This document shows, piece by piece, positions 41,672 to 45,611 of a stretch of DNA of 64,000 bases. Origin of the DNA: Vulcanimicrobiota bacterium. Its GTDB lineage: Bacteria; Vulcanimicrobiota; Vulcanimicrobiia; Vulcanimicrobiales; Vulcanimicrobiaceae. Numbering within the stretch: position 1 is the first letter of the stretch; each line of letters starts with the position of its first letter. A program made the position numbers and the translations under genes. Where the stretch lies: assembly GCA_027452165.1 (NCBI GenBank), contig DAIDGX010000023.1, positions 248,001 to 312,000 of the forward strand, in the 5' to 3' direction. Below the pieces are notes generated by a model. The model made no database searches and was not told the DNA's origin. It worked only from the letters and a program-made list of their open reading frames with translations.

Positions 41672-42562
41672 TTAAGAGAAAACCGGCCCCGAAGCCGCAA
41701 GAGCCCGGCGCAGGTAGAGCGGCAACGAGAAGAGCCGGCGATGGGTTTGCCCGTCGTAGAAAAAGTTCTCGCCCCGCAGTTTGCCGCAGTAGGCATCGAT
41801 CGCGGCCGGGTCGAGCGCGGCGAGATCGACGCTGTCGCTGCAGGCGAGGAAGGCCCACTCCGTATCGAAGGCCGGTACGTGCTGCGAGAAGCTGCTGACG
41901 TACCGGTAATGCTGCCGCAGCGTACGCGCCATCTTACAGTGCAGCGAAAGATTGTGGAACGCGGTCGTGCTCGCTTGCAACACGTAGATGCCGTCGTCGG
42001 CGAGACGCGACTTGATGAGCCCAAAGACGTCGTTGTTGAAGAGGATGTTGCTCGGCGAATCTTCGAGCGGCTCGGTGAGGTCGGAGATGATGACCCCGTA
42101 GCGATCGCGATCCTCGCGCATGAACGCGAGCGCATCGCCCACGATCACCCGTGCGCGCGGCTCGTCGAAGGCGCCGTCCGACCATTCCGGCAGATAGCGC
42201 TTGGAGAGATCGACGACGAGGCCGTCGATATCGACCATCGTGCAACGCGTGACGTCAGGATGACGCAGCACCTCGCGCAGCGTCGCGCCCTCACCGCCTC
42301 CGAGAATCAGCACGTCACGACGGTCGCGCGCACCCGCCATCGCGGGATGCACGAGCGTTTCGTGATAGATCTTCTCGTCGTTCTGCGAGCTCTGCGTGTC
42401 ACCGTCGAGGATGAGCATCTTGCCGAAGACCGGCGTGCTGATCACGGAGACTTGCTGAAACTCCGAGTGTCCCGCGTAGTACACGTGGTCGATGGCATGG
42501 TGGTGCCGTTCGGTAGGAGCGGACTCCTCAACGTACCATTGCCAGTATTCGGTCTTCGGCAT
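41672..42562 (-). CDS. speE: Polyamine aminopropyltransferase (Thermus SpeE-like)
   Basis: Transfers the aminopropyl group of decarboxylated SAM to an amine, releasing methylthioadenosine. The 296-residue protein shows FGKMLILDGDTQSSQNDEKI then YHETLVHPAM, VLILGGGEGATLREVLRHPD, and CTMVDIDGLVVDLSKRYLPE. The catalytic Asp is in VIISDLTEPLED. These phrases are closest, from memory, to the Thermus enzyme that uses agmatine, so N1-aminopropylagmatine may be the product rather than spermidine directly. ATG 42562 gives the N-terminus PKTEYWQWYVEE. Confidence 0.9.
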   Translation of the reverse strand: MPKTEYWQWYVEESAPTERHHHAIDHVYYAGHSEFQQVSVISTPVFGKMLILDGDTQSSQNDEKIYHETLVHPAMAGARDRRDVLILGGGEGATLREVLRHPDVTRCTMVDIDGLVVDLSKRYLPEWSDGAFDEPRARVIVGDALAFMREDRDRYGVIISDLTEPLEDSPSNILFNNDVFGLIKSRLADDGIYVLQASTTAFHNLSLHCKMARTLRQHYRYVSSFSQHVPAFDTEWAFLACSDSVDLAALDPAAIDAYCGKLRGENFFYDGQTHRRLFSLPLYLRRALAASGPVFS

Positions 42563-42587
42563 AGCGGGCTCGGGGTTTCGCCACACG

Positions 42588-42615
42588 GCAGGCGCTCCCC
42601 GCGAGGAGCACCTGC
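42588..42615 (-). repeat. Strong hairpin between the S53 protease and speE
   Basis: On the reverse strand GCAGGTGCTCC (42615-42605) pairs with GGAGCGCCTGC (42598-42588), with one U.G pair and a 6-nt loop. No T-tract follows, so it may be an mRNA-stabilising or processing element rather than a terminator. Confidence 0.5.
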
Positions 42616-42622
42616 TGCGATG

Positions 42623-44875
42623 CTATCGGCGGCGTTCCGAGAGGCGGTGCATCAGCACGAAGTTGTTTGCGATGACGCTCTGAACGTACGGCGCGATGGC
42701 CGCGGGGAGCGTCACCGGCGTCGCATTGGCGTAGCGGGCCATGCCGTTCTGGACGACGTCGTGGATGCTCGTTCCGAAGTAGTCCCCGACCGTCGCTGCG
42801 GGCGCGGTTGCCTGGATTGCGAAGCCCGCCGCGTACGTCACCGTGAAGCCCGCCGCGCGCAACTGCGACGCGACGTTCTGTAGGTCGCTCGCGAGCGACG
42901 GATTGCTGCGCAGGATCAACGTCACCGCGATCGGCGATGGCGACGTGCGCACGCCGAGATCGCGCTCACCGGGAACATGGACGACGTTTGCAAGCGTCGT
43001 GGCTCGCGCCGCGGCATAGCCCTGAGCGCGCACGGCCATCATGCCCGGTACCCGGACGCTCTGCGGCTTGCCGTTCGCGCAGAGGGTTTGCGCGATCGGC
43101 ATACCGAGCGGGATGCCGACACCGCTCACGTTATCGGGACCGGCCAAGGCCTGGTAGGGCGTCCCGTCGGGTGCGGTCGCGTAGTAGTTCGAACCCGTGG
43201 TGACGTCCAAGAAGTCGGCGGGGCGACGCTGGTACGCCAGATAGAAGAGGCCCTGCGGGGACGAGAACGCGGTCGGAATCGCTCCGCCGCAGTACTCGCT
43301 GATCTCGGCAATCAACGCTGCGGCTTGCGGCGTGCCCCACGACGTGCCGTCGAAGTAGGCGGCAACGCCGCGGTCGATCGTGTACGCGTTGACCGCAGGC
43401 AGCGCGATATCGGGCACGTTGCGCATCGTCGCCGATGCAAATCCGCTCACGCCGACCTGAGGCGTCGGAATCGCGAAGGTCGTCGAGACGCCGCCGCCAC
43501 CCGCACCGTTCGGGTCGCTCCACACGGCCGTATTCGTAATGCTCTTGTCGGTTTGCGTACCGCCGACGCCGATCGCGTTCGGGTCGGAGCCGGGATAGTT
43601 CACGCCGGGCGAATTCACGGGGGCGGGCGACGGCATTCCCACGTAGCACTCGTTGCCCTGATCGCCGCCGGCGGCGACGACGTAGATGCCCGCCTGCGCG
43701 AGCTTTGCGATATTCGATGAATCGGGTTGCGTGAAGTCTTGGCCGTTATAGTTCTCGCAACCGCCAAACGAGACGCTGAGCGCCACGATGTTGTACTTCG
43801 CCGCATCGGCGAGCACTTGGCTATACACAAGATTGAACGACTGATCGGTAAGATCGGGCATCACGTAGAAGCGAATGGTCGCTCCCGGCGCGAGCCCCGA
43901 CACCGTCTCCACGTCGAGCGTCGCTTCGTCCTTCCCCCCTGGATCGGGGGAGGGCGAGGCGCCCACGTACACGGGCGTGTAGGGCGTCGTTTGGGTGATC
44001 CCCAGGCTCGAAAGATAGGCGGCGACATCGCTCTGCGCCGGTGGTGCGTCGCCCAGGATCGCGACCGTGTAGCCTTTGCCGTCGTAGCCACTCTGCACGG
44101 GATACTGAAGTGCGTGCGCGATATCGTACGCGCCCCAGCCCTTCGGCGGCGAGATCGCCGGCAACGTGGGATCGGGACCGGGAATCAACGTGGCGAGCGC
44201 CGAGGGAGCCGGCGTCGGCGTCTGCAGCATCGTCGCGTTGGTGACCACGGCGAAGGTGTAGGTTGCTCCCGCTGCGAGCGCGAGCGCCGGCCGGAACGGG
44301 ACGCCGGCGGGAAACGCAAGCGAGGTCGCACCGCTCGCTACTGGGATCTCTTCTGCCGAGACCCAGCCGTTCGTCGCGCCGGTGTAGTACACGATATCGG
44401 CATAGCCGCCGCTCGCAAGCGGCGCCGCAAGTCCTACCGTCGTGGCAGGCACGTTCGCAAGCGTCATCGCGGCACTACTTTGGAAGGTCAGGTATTCAAT
44501 CGTGGTCACATTCGCGCCGAGCACTTGCGCGCGCATCGCGTGCGCCTGCGGCACGGGTATGCTCCCCGCCGCCGAGCCCGACGCGGCAACGCTGACCGTC
44601 GTCGCGACGGTACTCACCGGCACCGTCAGGGTCGTCGTTCCGGCACTACCTGCCGCGCCGAGCGTGAACGTGGTCGAACTGGAGAGCGAGAGCGGCCCCG
44701 AGGTCGCGGTTGGAAGCGCTGGAACGCTTGCGGTGTTCGTCGGCACGGGTGTCGGGATGACCCCTCCACCGTTGCCACCTCCGCCGCCTCCGCCACCGCC
44801 GCCGCACGCAACGAGTGCCGCACAGGTCAGGACGGCAAAAACGCCGCCGACTCGCAAACCCAATCGCCGATTCAT
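42623..44875 (-). CDS. S53 (sedolisin/kumamolisin) peptidase lipoprotein with a C-terminal pro-domain-like region
   Basis: A secreted serine-carboxyl peptidase, 750 residues. The N-terminus is a lipoprotein signal ending LVAC, followed by a poly-Gly linker. A beta-rich domain spans about 60-230 and the catalytic domain about 245-600. That domain has Glu and Asp in KDEATLDVETVSGLAPG, the oxyanion Asp in VVAAGGDQGNECY and Ser in YFDGTSWGTPQAAAL. The last about 110 residues (IAVTLILR, LRAAGFTVTYA, DYFGTSIHDVV, YANATPVTLPAAIAPYV) match the activation pro-domain that normally precedes the catalytic domain. The start was chosen at ATG 44875 for the signal; an upstream Met is possible. It is monocistronic as far as I see. 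Confidence 0.9.
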   Translation of the reverse strand: MNRRLGLRVGGVFAVLTCAALVACGGGGGGGGGGNGGGVIPTPVPTNTASVPALPTATSGPLSLSSSTTFTLGAAGSAGTTTLTVPVSTVATTVSVAASGSAAGSIPVPQAHAMRAQVLGANVTTIEYLTFQSSAAMTLANVPATTVGLAAPLASGGYADIVYYTGATNGWVSAEEIPVASGATSLAFPAGVPFRPALALAAGATYTFAVVTNATMLQTPTPAPSALATLIPGPDPTLPAISPPKGWGAYDIAHALQYPVQSGYDGKGYTVAILGDAPPAQSDVAAYLSSLGITQTTPYTPVYVGASPSPDPGGKDEATLDVETVSGLAPGATIRFYVMPDLTDQSFNLVYSQVLADAAKYNIVALSVSFGGCENYNGQDFTQPDSSNIAKLAQAGIYVVAAGGDQGNECYVGMPSPAPVNSPGVNYPGSDPNAIGVGGTQTDKSITNTAVWSDPNGAGGGGVSTTFAIPTPQVGVSGFASATMRNVPDIALPAVNAYTIDRGVAAYFDGTSWGTPQAAALIAEISEYCGGAIPTAFSSPQGLFYLAYQRRPADFLDVTTGSNYYATAPDGTPYQALAGPDNVSGVGIPLGMPIAQTLCANGKPQSVRVPGMMAVRAQGYAAARATTLANVVHVPGERDLGVRTSPSPIAVTLILRSNPSLASDLQNVASQLRAAGFTVTYAAGFAIQATAPAATVGDYFGTSIHDVVQNGMARYANATPVTLPAAIAPYVQSVIANNFVLMHRLSERRR

Positions 44876-44936
44876 AGTCCGGCCTAGGTTGGCTACGTGT
44901 GCCACAATTCTTGCGGATCGGCGCTCGGGCTGCATG

Positions 44937-44968
44937 AAAAAGCGCTACGGCTGCATGCCGTAGCGCTT
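44937..44968 (-). terminator. Rho-independent terminator of speH
   Basis: On the reverse strand AAGCGCTACGGC (44968-44957) pairs perfectly with GCCGTAGCGCTT (44951-44940) around a 5-nt loop and ends in TTTTT (44941-44937). It lies 24 bp past the speH stop. Confidence 0.9.
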
Positions 44969-44992
44969 GGGAATCCGCTCGCGTTGTGCGTC

Positions 44993-45403
44993 CTACGCGG
45001 AGAGCGCGGTCGTCTCGTGATCTCGGGTGACGACGTGGGTGAAGTGCCCTGCCGGCTGCGCGATCCCGCGCTTCACTTCGGTCGTCAACATCGTCGTCGC
45101 GTCGAGTGCCTTGGCGGCAAACTCGCACGCGAGCCACGGATCGGTGTGGTCGCCGCACGTGTAGAAATCCATCGCGGCGTAGCCCGTCTCGGGCCAGGTG
45201 TGGATCGAGAGGTGCGACTCCGCGAGTACGACTACGCCGGAGACGCCCTGGGGTTCGAAGCGATGGAATGCCACCTCCATCACCGTCGCTCGCGATGCCT
45301 TGGCCGCGCCGATCATCATCTCGCGGACCGCATCCACATCCGTGAGCTTGGCTGCATCGCAGCCTGACAACTCACACACAATGTGCGTACCGAGTGCCTT
45401 CAA
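44993..45403 (-). CDS. speH: S-adenosylmethionine decarboxylase proenzyme (prokaryotic SpeH type)
   Basis: Pyruvoyl enzyme that makes decarboxylated SAM for aminopropyl transfer. The 136-residue protein shows LKALGTHIVCELSGCDAAKL. VLAESHLSIHTWPETGYAAM contains the Glu-Ser autocleavage site that forms the pyruvoyl group, and DFYTCGDHTDPW follows. I place the start at TTG 45403, where family homology begins, with AGGAGAG about 10 nt upstream. The longer in-frame sequence upstream is its structured leader, not protein. It has its own promoter and terminator. Confidence 0.92.
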   Translation of the reverse strand: MKALGTHIVCELSGCDAAKLTDVDAVREMMIGAAKASRATVMEVAFHRFEPQGVSGVVVLAESHLSIHTWPETGYAAMDFYTCGDHTDPWLACEFAAKALDATTMLTTEVKRGIAQPAGHFTHVVTRDHETTALSA

Positions 45404-45611
45404 TTTTTTACCGCTCTCCTGGACCCTCGGGGGAAATCCCACCTCCGGACTTCGTCGGCTGGCGCCTGCAGTGCAGTCACGTCCCCGACCTATCGACGAG
45501 CTCTTGCCGGCGCTTTTCGGTGCACGGGCGACTCGCCGCGATGGCGCGAAAAGGGCGCGCCCACCCCATACCGTCGGCCTCGGCGTCCCCTCACGGCGAC
45601 CCAAGGTCCGG
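45404..45611 (-). promoter_or_regulatory. Long structured 5' leader of speH (riboswitch candidate)
   Basis: This GC-rich gap of about 210 nt has no gene I can support. CCGGAC at the 5' end (45611-45606) is complementary to GTCCGG (45450-45445) just before the Shine-Dalgarno region, forming a closing helix. GTCG/CGAC lies inside it, with a GGCGCG/CGCGCC hairpin and smaller stems. The 3' part next to AGGAGAG has GGGATTTCCC. This layout is what a translation-controlling leader would look like. Confidence 0.5.

Follow-up and report, generated by a model that had tools for sequence, protein, structure and literature searches.

A clade of S53 lipoproteins in Eremiobacterota with a shortened prodomain behind the catalytic domain

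We analyzed a 64,000-nucleotide stretch of DNA (the window) that carries the gene for a protease of family S53 (sedolisins). The gene occupies a 750-codon frame on the minus strand that starts at the ATG at 44875 and is open over 42623..44875; an alternative in-frame ATG lies 20 codons upstream. Along the protein, a lipobox is followed by a poly-Gly stretch, an N-terminal domain, a kumamolisin-like S53 catalytic domain and a C-terminal domain. We refer to the order in which the prodomain follows the catalytic domain as permuted, and to the reverse order as canonical. The features are as follows.

42623..44875, minus strand: coding sequence of a permuted S53 (sedolisin) lipoprotein of 750 amino acids (open frame; same order in 22 other genes of the phylum)
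44804..44875, minus strand: signal peptide and lipobox, residues 1-24 (..CAALVAC24), predicted lipid anchor (sequence; conservation in permuted relatives)
44762..44803, minus strand: poly-Gly stretch, residues 25-38 (sequence)
44201..44698, minus strand: N-terminal module, residues ~60-225, without a Pfam family (missing or replaced in several permuted relatives)
43076..44158, minus strand: S53 catalytic domain, residues ~240-600 (phmmer to tripeptidyl-peptidase 1; Foldseek to kumamolisin-As)
43925..43927, minus strand: catalytic Glu317 (invariant, 17/17)
43913..43915, minus strand: catalytic Asp321 (invariant, 17/17)
43661..43663, minus strand: oxyanion-hole Asp405 (invariant, 17/17)
43340..43342, minus strand: catalytic Ser512 in GTSW (invariant, 17/17)
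42968..43075, minus strand: poorly conserved linker between catalytic domain and C-terminal prodomain, residues 601-636, likely processing region (low AF2 confidence; dN/dS)
42626..42967, minus strand: C-terminal prodomain, a shortened Pro-kuma_activ domain by Pfam, alignment, AF2 and Foldseek, residues 637-750
42902..42907, minus strand: site of the 33-residue absence, after residue ~657 and just beyond strand 1 (alignment with N-terminal prodomains)
42626..42670, minus strand: free C-terminal tail, residues 736-750, beyond the last predicted strand (low model confidence at the end)

Flanking the protease gene are speD (AdoMet decarboxylase, 44993-45604) on one side and speE (spermidine synthase, 41672-42586) on the other; all three genes are on the minus strand within window positions 41672-45604. 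The speD-protease-speE arrangement recurs in L035, L036, L048 (with two tandem protease copies) and L052. The remaining permuted genes have other locations or lie on contigs too short to tell. Another side-by-side pair of permuted sedolisin genes, like that in L048, is found at G118:C117:4013-7270. At L058:95-5503, a permuted sedolisin gene adjoins one for a putative metalloprotease (HELQH), and a similar tectonin-like N-terminal module is common to both products.

The lipobox (LVAC, C24) and the poly-Gly stretch, which a sequence-only reading of the locus had described on the N-terminal side, are both present. L21, A23 and C24 are invariant among nine aligned permuted proteins, and a pattern test found a lipobox in 17/17 permuted proteins with a complete N-terminus inside the locus. 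The N-terminal module matches no Pfam family in the window protein and varies among permuted proteins; it is absent from L036, L039 and L041, and L058 has a tectonin domain. The prodomain is invariably C-terminal alongside these variable modules. A 632-residue frame at L033:2889-4785 (minus strand), beside the canonical sedolisin of the window's own genome, resembles the window protease's N-terminal module over its first ~220 residues but encodes an otherwise unrelated protein.

The catalytic domain has the features expected of family S53. E317, D321, D405 and S512, the Glu, Asp, Asp and Ser residues claimed from the sequence, lie at S53 family positions and are invariant in all 17 permuted proteins aligned. 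The domain matches tripeptidyl-peptidase 1 by phmmer (E 2e-6), and the best PDB matches of its fold by Foldseek are kumamolisin-As (E=1.8e-21) and kumamolisin (E about 1e-21). At the calcium-motif positions (Asp..Gly-x-Asp), D581 is nearly invariant and D557 is substituted in some relatives. S53 enzymes carry the prodomain N-terminal to the catalytic domain, whereas the window protein has it at the C-terminus instead. A second sedolisin in the same genome (C19, L001/L033) has the normal domain order.

Several lines of evidence bear on the identity of the C-terminal domain. The sole Pfam match in the window protein is to Pro-kuma_activ (PF09286), not to an unrelated family. It covers residues 663-734 with 33.7 bits (E=5.2e-8), above the gathering cut-off of 23.5 bits, and a six-frame genome search placed the same family at window positions 42674-42889 with 36 bits. 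The match includes only profile positions 62-137 of 143, and the window protein lacks the complete domain. Residues 60-240, where a normal prodomain would have spoken against a permutation, gave no Pfam match and contain no N-terminal prodomain by that search. Among ten permuted relatives scanned with Pfam, eight had a Pro-kuma_activ match above the cut-off, one had a match below it and one had none; all nine matches were exclusively C-terminal. No second, N-terminal prodomain turned up when 11 permuted proteins were scanned with Pfam, and a custom prodomain profile detected none in any of the permuted proteins.

We aligned 11 permuted prodomains with 17 N-terminal prodomains of relatives. Homology spans about residues 634-740 of the window protein, and the C-terminal phrases that the sequence-only reading likened to the pro-kumamolisin domain are therefore all genuine. 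Both sets share the motifs (R)DLGxR, strand 1, LxxAGF, APxxxV, YFxTxxH, RYANxxPxTxPAxIAPYV and the last strand. The same 33 residues are missing directly after strand 1 in 11/11 permuted prodomains; this segment, with the pattern 'h..eL..fv....P.SP.y.hfLt..qFn..faPt', is present wholly or partly in the aligned N-terminal prodomains. The proposed C-terminal activation domain thus stands as a homologous prodomain, but an incomplete one.

Structure prediction gave a consistent picture. The C-terminal domain modeled alone with AF2 (17 sequences) had a mean pLDDT of 87, with core blocks at 94-98, and is predicted to form a beta-alpha-beta-beta-alpha-beta core. A core of this kind is similar to S8 subtilase propeptides, which are smaller. 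When this model was compared with 350,542 PDB chains by Foldseek, only 1T1E, 3EE6 and 3EDY fell below E=0.001, all of them S53 zymogens: 1T1E is pro-kumamolisin, and 3EE6 and 3EDY are two entries for the TPP1 zymogen. The full two-domain model reached a pLDDT of 77 and a pTM of 0.73 (five models ranged from 52 to 77), and the linker and the C-terminal end had low confidence in the AF2 models. On this sequence and model evidence, we conclude that the C-terminal domain of the window protein is a shortened but well-conserved S53 prodomain.

We examined how widely the permuted order occurs using 60 relatives, a conserved-motif scan of one genome per species (84,980 species) and a profile search of 149 genomes of the phylum, with a profile spanning the catalytic end and the C-terminal domain. 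In Eremiobacterota, 23 genes in 20 of the 149 genomes matched this profile over both parts (223-293 bits), so that 22 genes besides the window's own have the same domain order. The remaining matches listed reached at most 116 bits and were nearly all confined to the prodomain part. A census by domain scan of open frames in the collected loci saw the classes PRO-CAT, CAT-PRO and CAT; after deduplication, it counted 22 CAT-PRO proteins, 76 PRO-CAT proteins and none with both prodomains. Any match to Pro-kuma_activ was found in 106/147 genomes of the phylum. Across the 84,980 species of the motif scan, the permuted order occurred only in Eremiobacterota records or in MAGs without a stated phylum. 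We also ran profile searches on two other phyla, those of L063 (Actinomycetes, Actinomycetota; 396 genomes) and L064 (Binatia; 297 genomes), and saw no permuted order in the loci read, which were PRO-CAT or had the catalytic domain alone. A spanning match in L134, considered as a permuted protein outside Eremiobacterota, proved canonical. The earlier reader knew of no described example, and in the open-access PMC literature we likewise came across none with an S53 prodomain at the C-terminus. As far as could be checked there, the architecture seen in this single lipoprotein clade of Eremiobacterota, a sedolisin ending in a shortened prodomain, is undescribed.

The permuted order has a single origin. 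In a tree of catalytic domains from 44 proteins, the 17 permuted proteins form one clade (100/97), and a tree of prodomains likewise groups the permuted ones as a single clade (97/96). L033 and the L011 minus-strand ORF, both very divergent and both present in the first tree, were dropped because L033, on a very long branch, fell within the permuted clade. Three architectures fit the catalytic tree with two changes, the minimum. The first has an N-terminal prodomain and a short linker (gap of 7-95 residues, median 33), mostly with no lipobox seen. The second comprises long-gap lipoproteins in which 127-304 residues separate the N-terminal prodomain from the catalytic domain, the spacer consisting of a weakly CBM4_9-like domain and proline-rich repeats; 24 of 27 long-gap proteins have a lipobox. 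The permuted form is the third. In L012, L014-L018, L020, L023, L027, L028, L043 and L044, the inserted spacer, an unusual layout in its own right, mostly leaves a gap of 220-304 residues.

The permuted clade is bordered by long-gap proteins. The nearest are L013, L011 and L059 (node 99/97, with one weak inner node at 95/47); this suggests that separation of prodomain and enzyme preceded the prodomain's switch of terminus. The long-gap lipoproteins are a plausible halfway form, and the route to the permuted order would have led through such sister forms. These results refine the permutation that had been proposed: it is real and monophyletic, but it probably started from lipoproteins in which a domain plus a proline-rich linker already set the prodomain apart. 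The switch itself possibly occurred through fusion of tandem copies; tandem S53 arrays are found in L043, L044 and L048. The protein at L011:526-2676, one of those most closely related to the permuted clade, has an N-terminal prodomain without its second half (the FxTxxH part), and this prodomain is possibly decaying.

We estimated selection on the parts of the protein in close relatives. In the trio L049-L051, dN/dS was 0.12-0.145 for the catalytic domain, 0.09-0.14 for the C-terminal domain and highest for the linker, at 0.18-0.46. In these close relatives, purifying selection constrains the C-terminal domain just as strongly as the catalytic domain; the C-terminal domain is therefore not decaying there. 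Comparisons among the window protein and the two proteins nearest to it gave higher values for the C-terminal domain (0.55-0.72) than for the catalytic domain (0.36-0.42), but these sequences have diverged too far for the estimate to be firm, with dS near saturation.

We propose that the window gene probably encodes a surface-anchored S53 enzyme of Eremiobacterota whose chaperone and inhibitor domain moved from the N- to the C-terminus, inhibits the enzyme from behind and is removed to leave a lipid-anchored protease. The chain would be unfolded during export and would receive its lipid at Cys24. When export is complete, the C-terminal domain would fold against the catalytic domain, aid its folding and block it, with the active-site cleft occupied by the domain's short free tail or by the linker. 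The tail of the subtilisin propeptide likewise sits in the active-site cleft, and the canonical order, in which the prodomain leads into the linker, makes residues 736-750 a candidate occupant by analogy. At acid pH, cleavage within the variable linker (residues ~601-636) would free the C-terminal domain, and the mature enzyme would retain its N-terminal lipid anchor and stay on the cell. In the sister lipoproteins, removal of the N-terminal prodomain would also detach the enzyme from its anchor. Anchoring alone fails to explain why the prodomain moved, because the long-gap sisters are lipoproteins as well. More tentatively, the free tail could serve as a preformed, product-like inhibitor; inhibition would then be established without cleavage at the junction of prodomain and enzyme, and losing the domain would activate a still-anchored enzyme. 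The missing 33 residues may contain part of the canonical interface. The domain order may alter folding, inhibition or activation, as the sequence-only reading had suggested.

Known systems share parts of this scheme. Pro-kumamolisin (S53, 1T1E) has the same catalytic fold, the same Glu-Asp-Asp-Ser residues and a homologous prodomain fold, but its prodomain is N-terminal and complete with a short linker, whereas that of the window protein lacks 33 residues and ends the chain. Human TPP1 (zymogen structures 3EE6 and 3EDY) is, among solved structures, the one closest in sequence to the catalytic domain and also matches the prodomain fold; unlike the window protein, it has an N-terminal prodomain, is lysosomal and is no lipoprotein. 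The nearest catalytic relatives are the long-gap lipoproteins (L012-L018, L020, L023, L027, L028, L011, L059), which mostly have a lipobox and share the prodomain subtype. They differ in running from an N-terminal prodomain through the weakly CBM4_9-like domain and proline-rich linker to the catalytic domain. In legumain (C13), a C-terminal prodomain is removed autocatalytically by acid (PMC10952133), as we propose for the window protease; legumain is an unrelated enzyme, however, with an unrelated death-domain-like prodomain and a family in which the C-terminal position is usual. The CspB prodomain restores folding in trans, and its C-terminal residues block the active site (PMC3567191); SUB1-ProM is a stand-alone prodomain inhibitor (PMC6993865). 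Since both work in trans, fusion ahead of the enzyme is not required for a subtilase prodomain to fold or inhibit it, as posited for the C-terminal domain. Both belong to S8 rather than S53, and their prodomains are N-terminal or a separate protein, not C-terminal.

We weighed other explanations for the C-terminal domain. It might stay in place permanently as a pH-sensitive lid that alternately covers and uncovers the active site, giving reversible regulation with no zymogen step. The domain is covalently tethered through a 25-63-residue linker, the canonical chain path from prodomain through cleft to enzyme is lost in the permuted form, and CspB retains a stable prodomain complex (PMC3567191). 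The linker, however, is the least conserved part of the protein, as expected for a cleavable segment, and autoprocessing of sedolisins at acid pH is documented (PMC6278154), so we regard a permanent lid as unlikely. A role mainly in trans, on the canonical sedolisins of the same cell, with the protein's own catalytic domain folding unaided, is highly improbable. The genome does encode a second, canonical sedolisin, and stand-alone prodomain inhibitors exist (PMC6993865), but this enzyme is very distant from the window protease (catalytic match of only 27 bits), and the permuted proteins group as a single clade whether the tree is built from catalytic domains or from prodomains, which indicates joint evolution in cis.

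Tandem S53 genes in the relatives G029, G015 and L048 offer an easy route to a functionless leftover, in which the catalytic domain of one copy was fused to the prodomain of the next. We give this very little credence: the domain is kept in every permuted gene found, carries the identical internal deletion in 11/11 aligned, is predicted to have a compact fold with high confidence and is constrained like the catalytic domain in the closest trio. Most genomes in the survey are metagenome-assembled, which raises chimeric assembly, frameshift or chance similarity as sources of the pattern. Assembly error is excluded as the cause of the domain order because 23 genes in 20 genomes, from several genera and families, have the same order; sequence and fold searches also agree, and the chance of any such artefact is negligible.

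The prodomains of subtilases and sedolisins are textbook intramolecular chaperones and are described as N-terminal. The conserved C-terminal version reported here has a single origin and long-linker sisters, and such close relatives allow a test of whether prodomain order or the junction matters for folding and inhibition. At about 105 residues, this compact sedolisin prodomain would be useful for structural work. Our findings suggest a route of zymogen activation that keeps the membrane anchor. If true, a preformed-inhibitor tail together with anchored activation would represent a zymogen logic not described for the subtilase fold.
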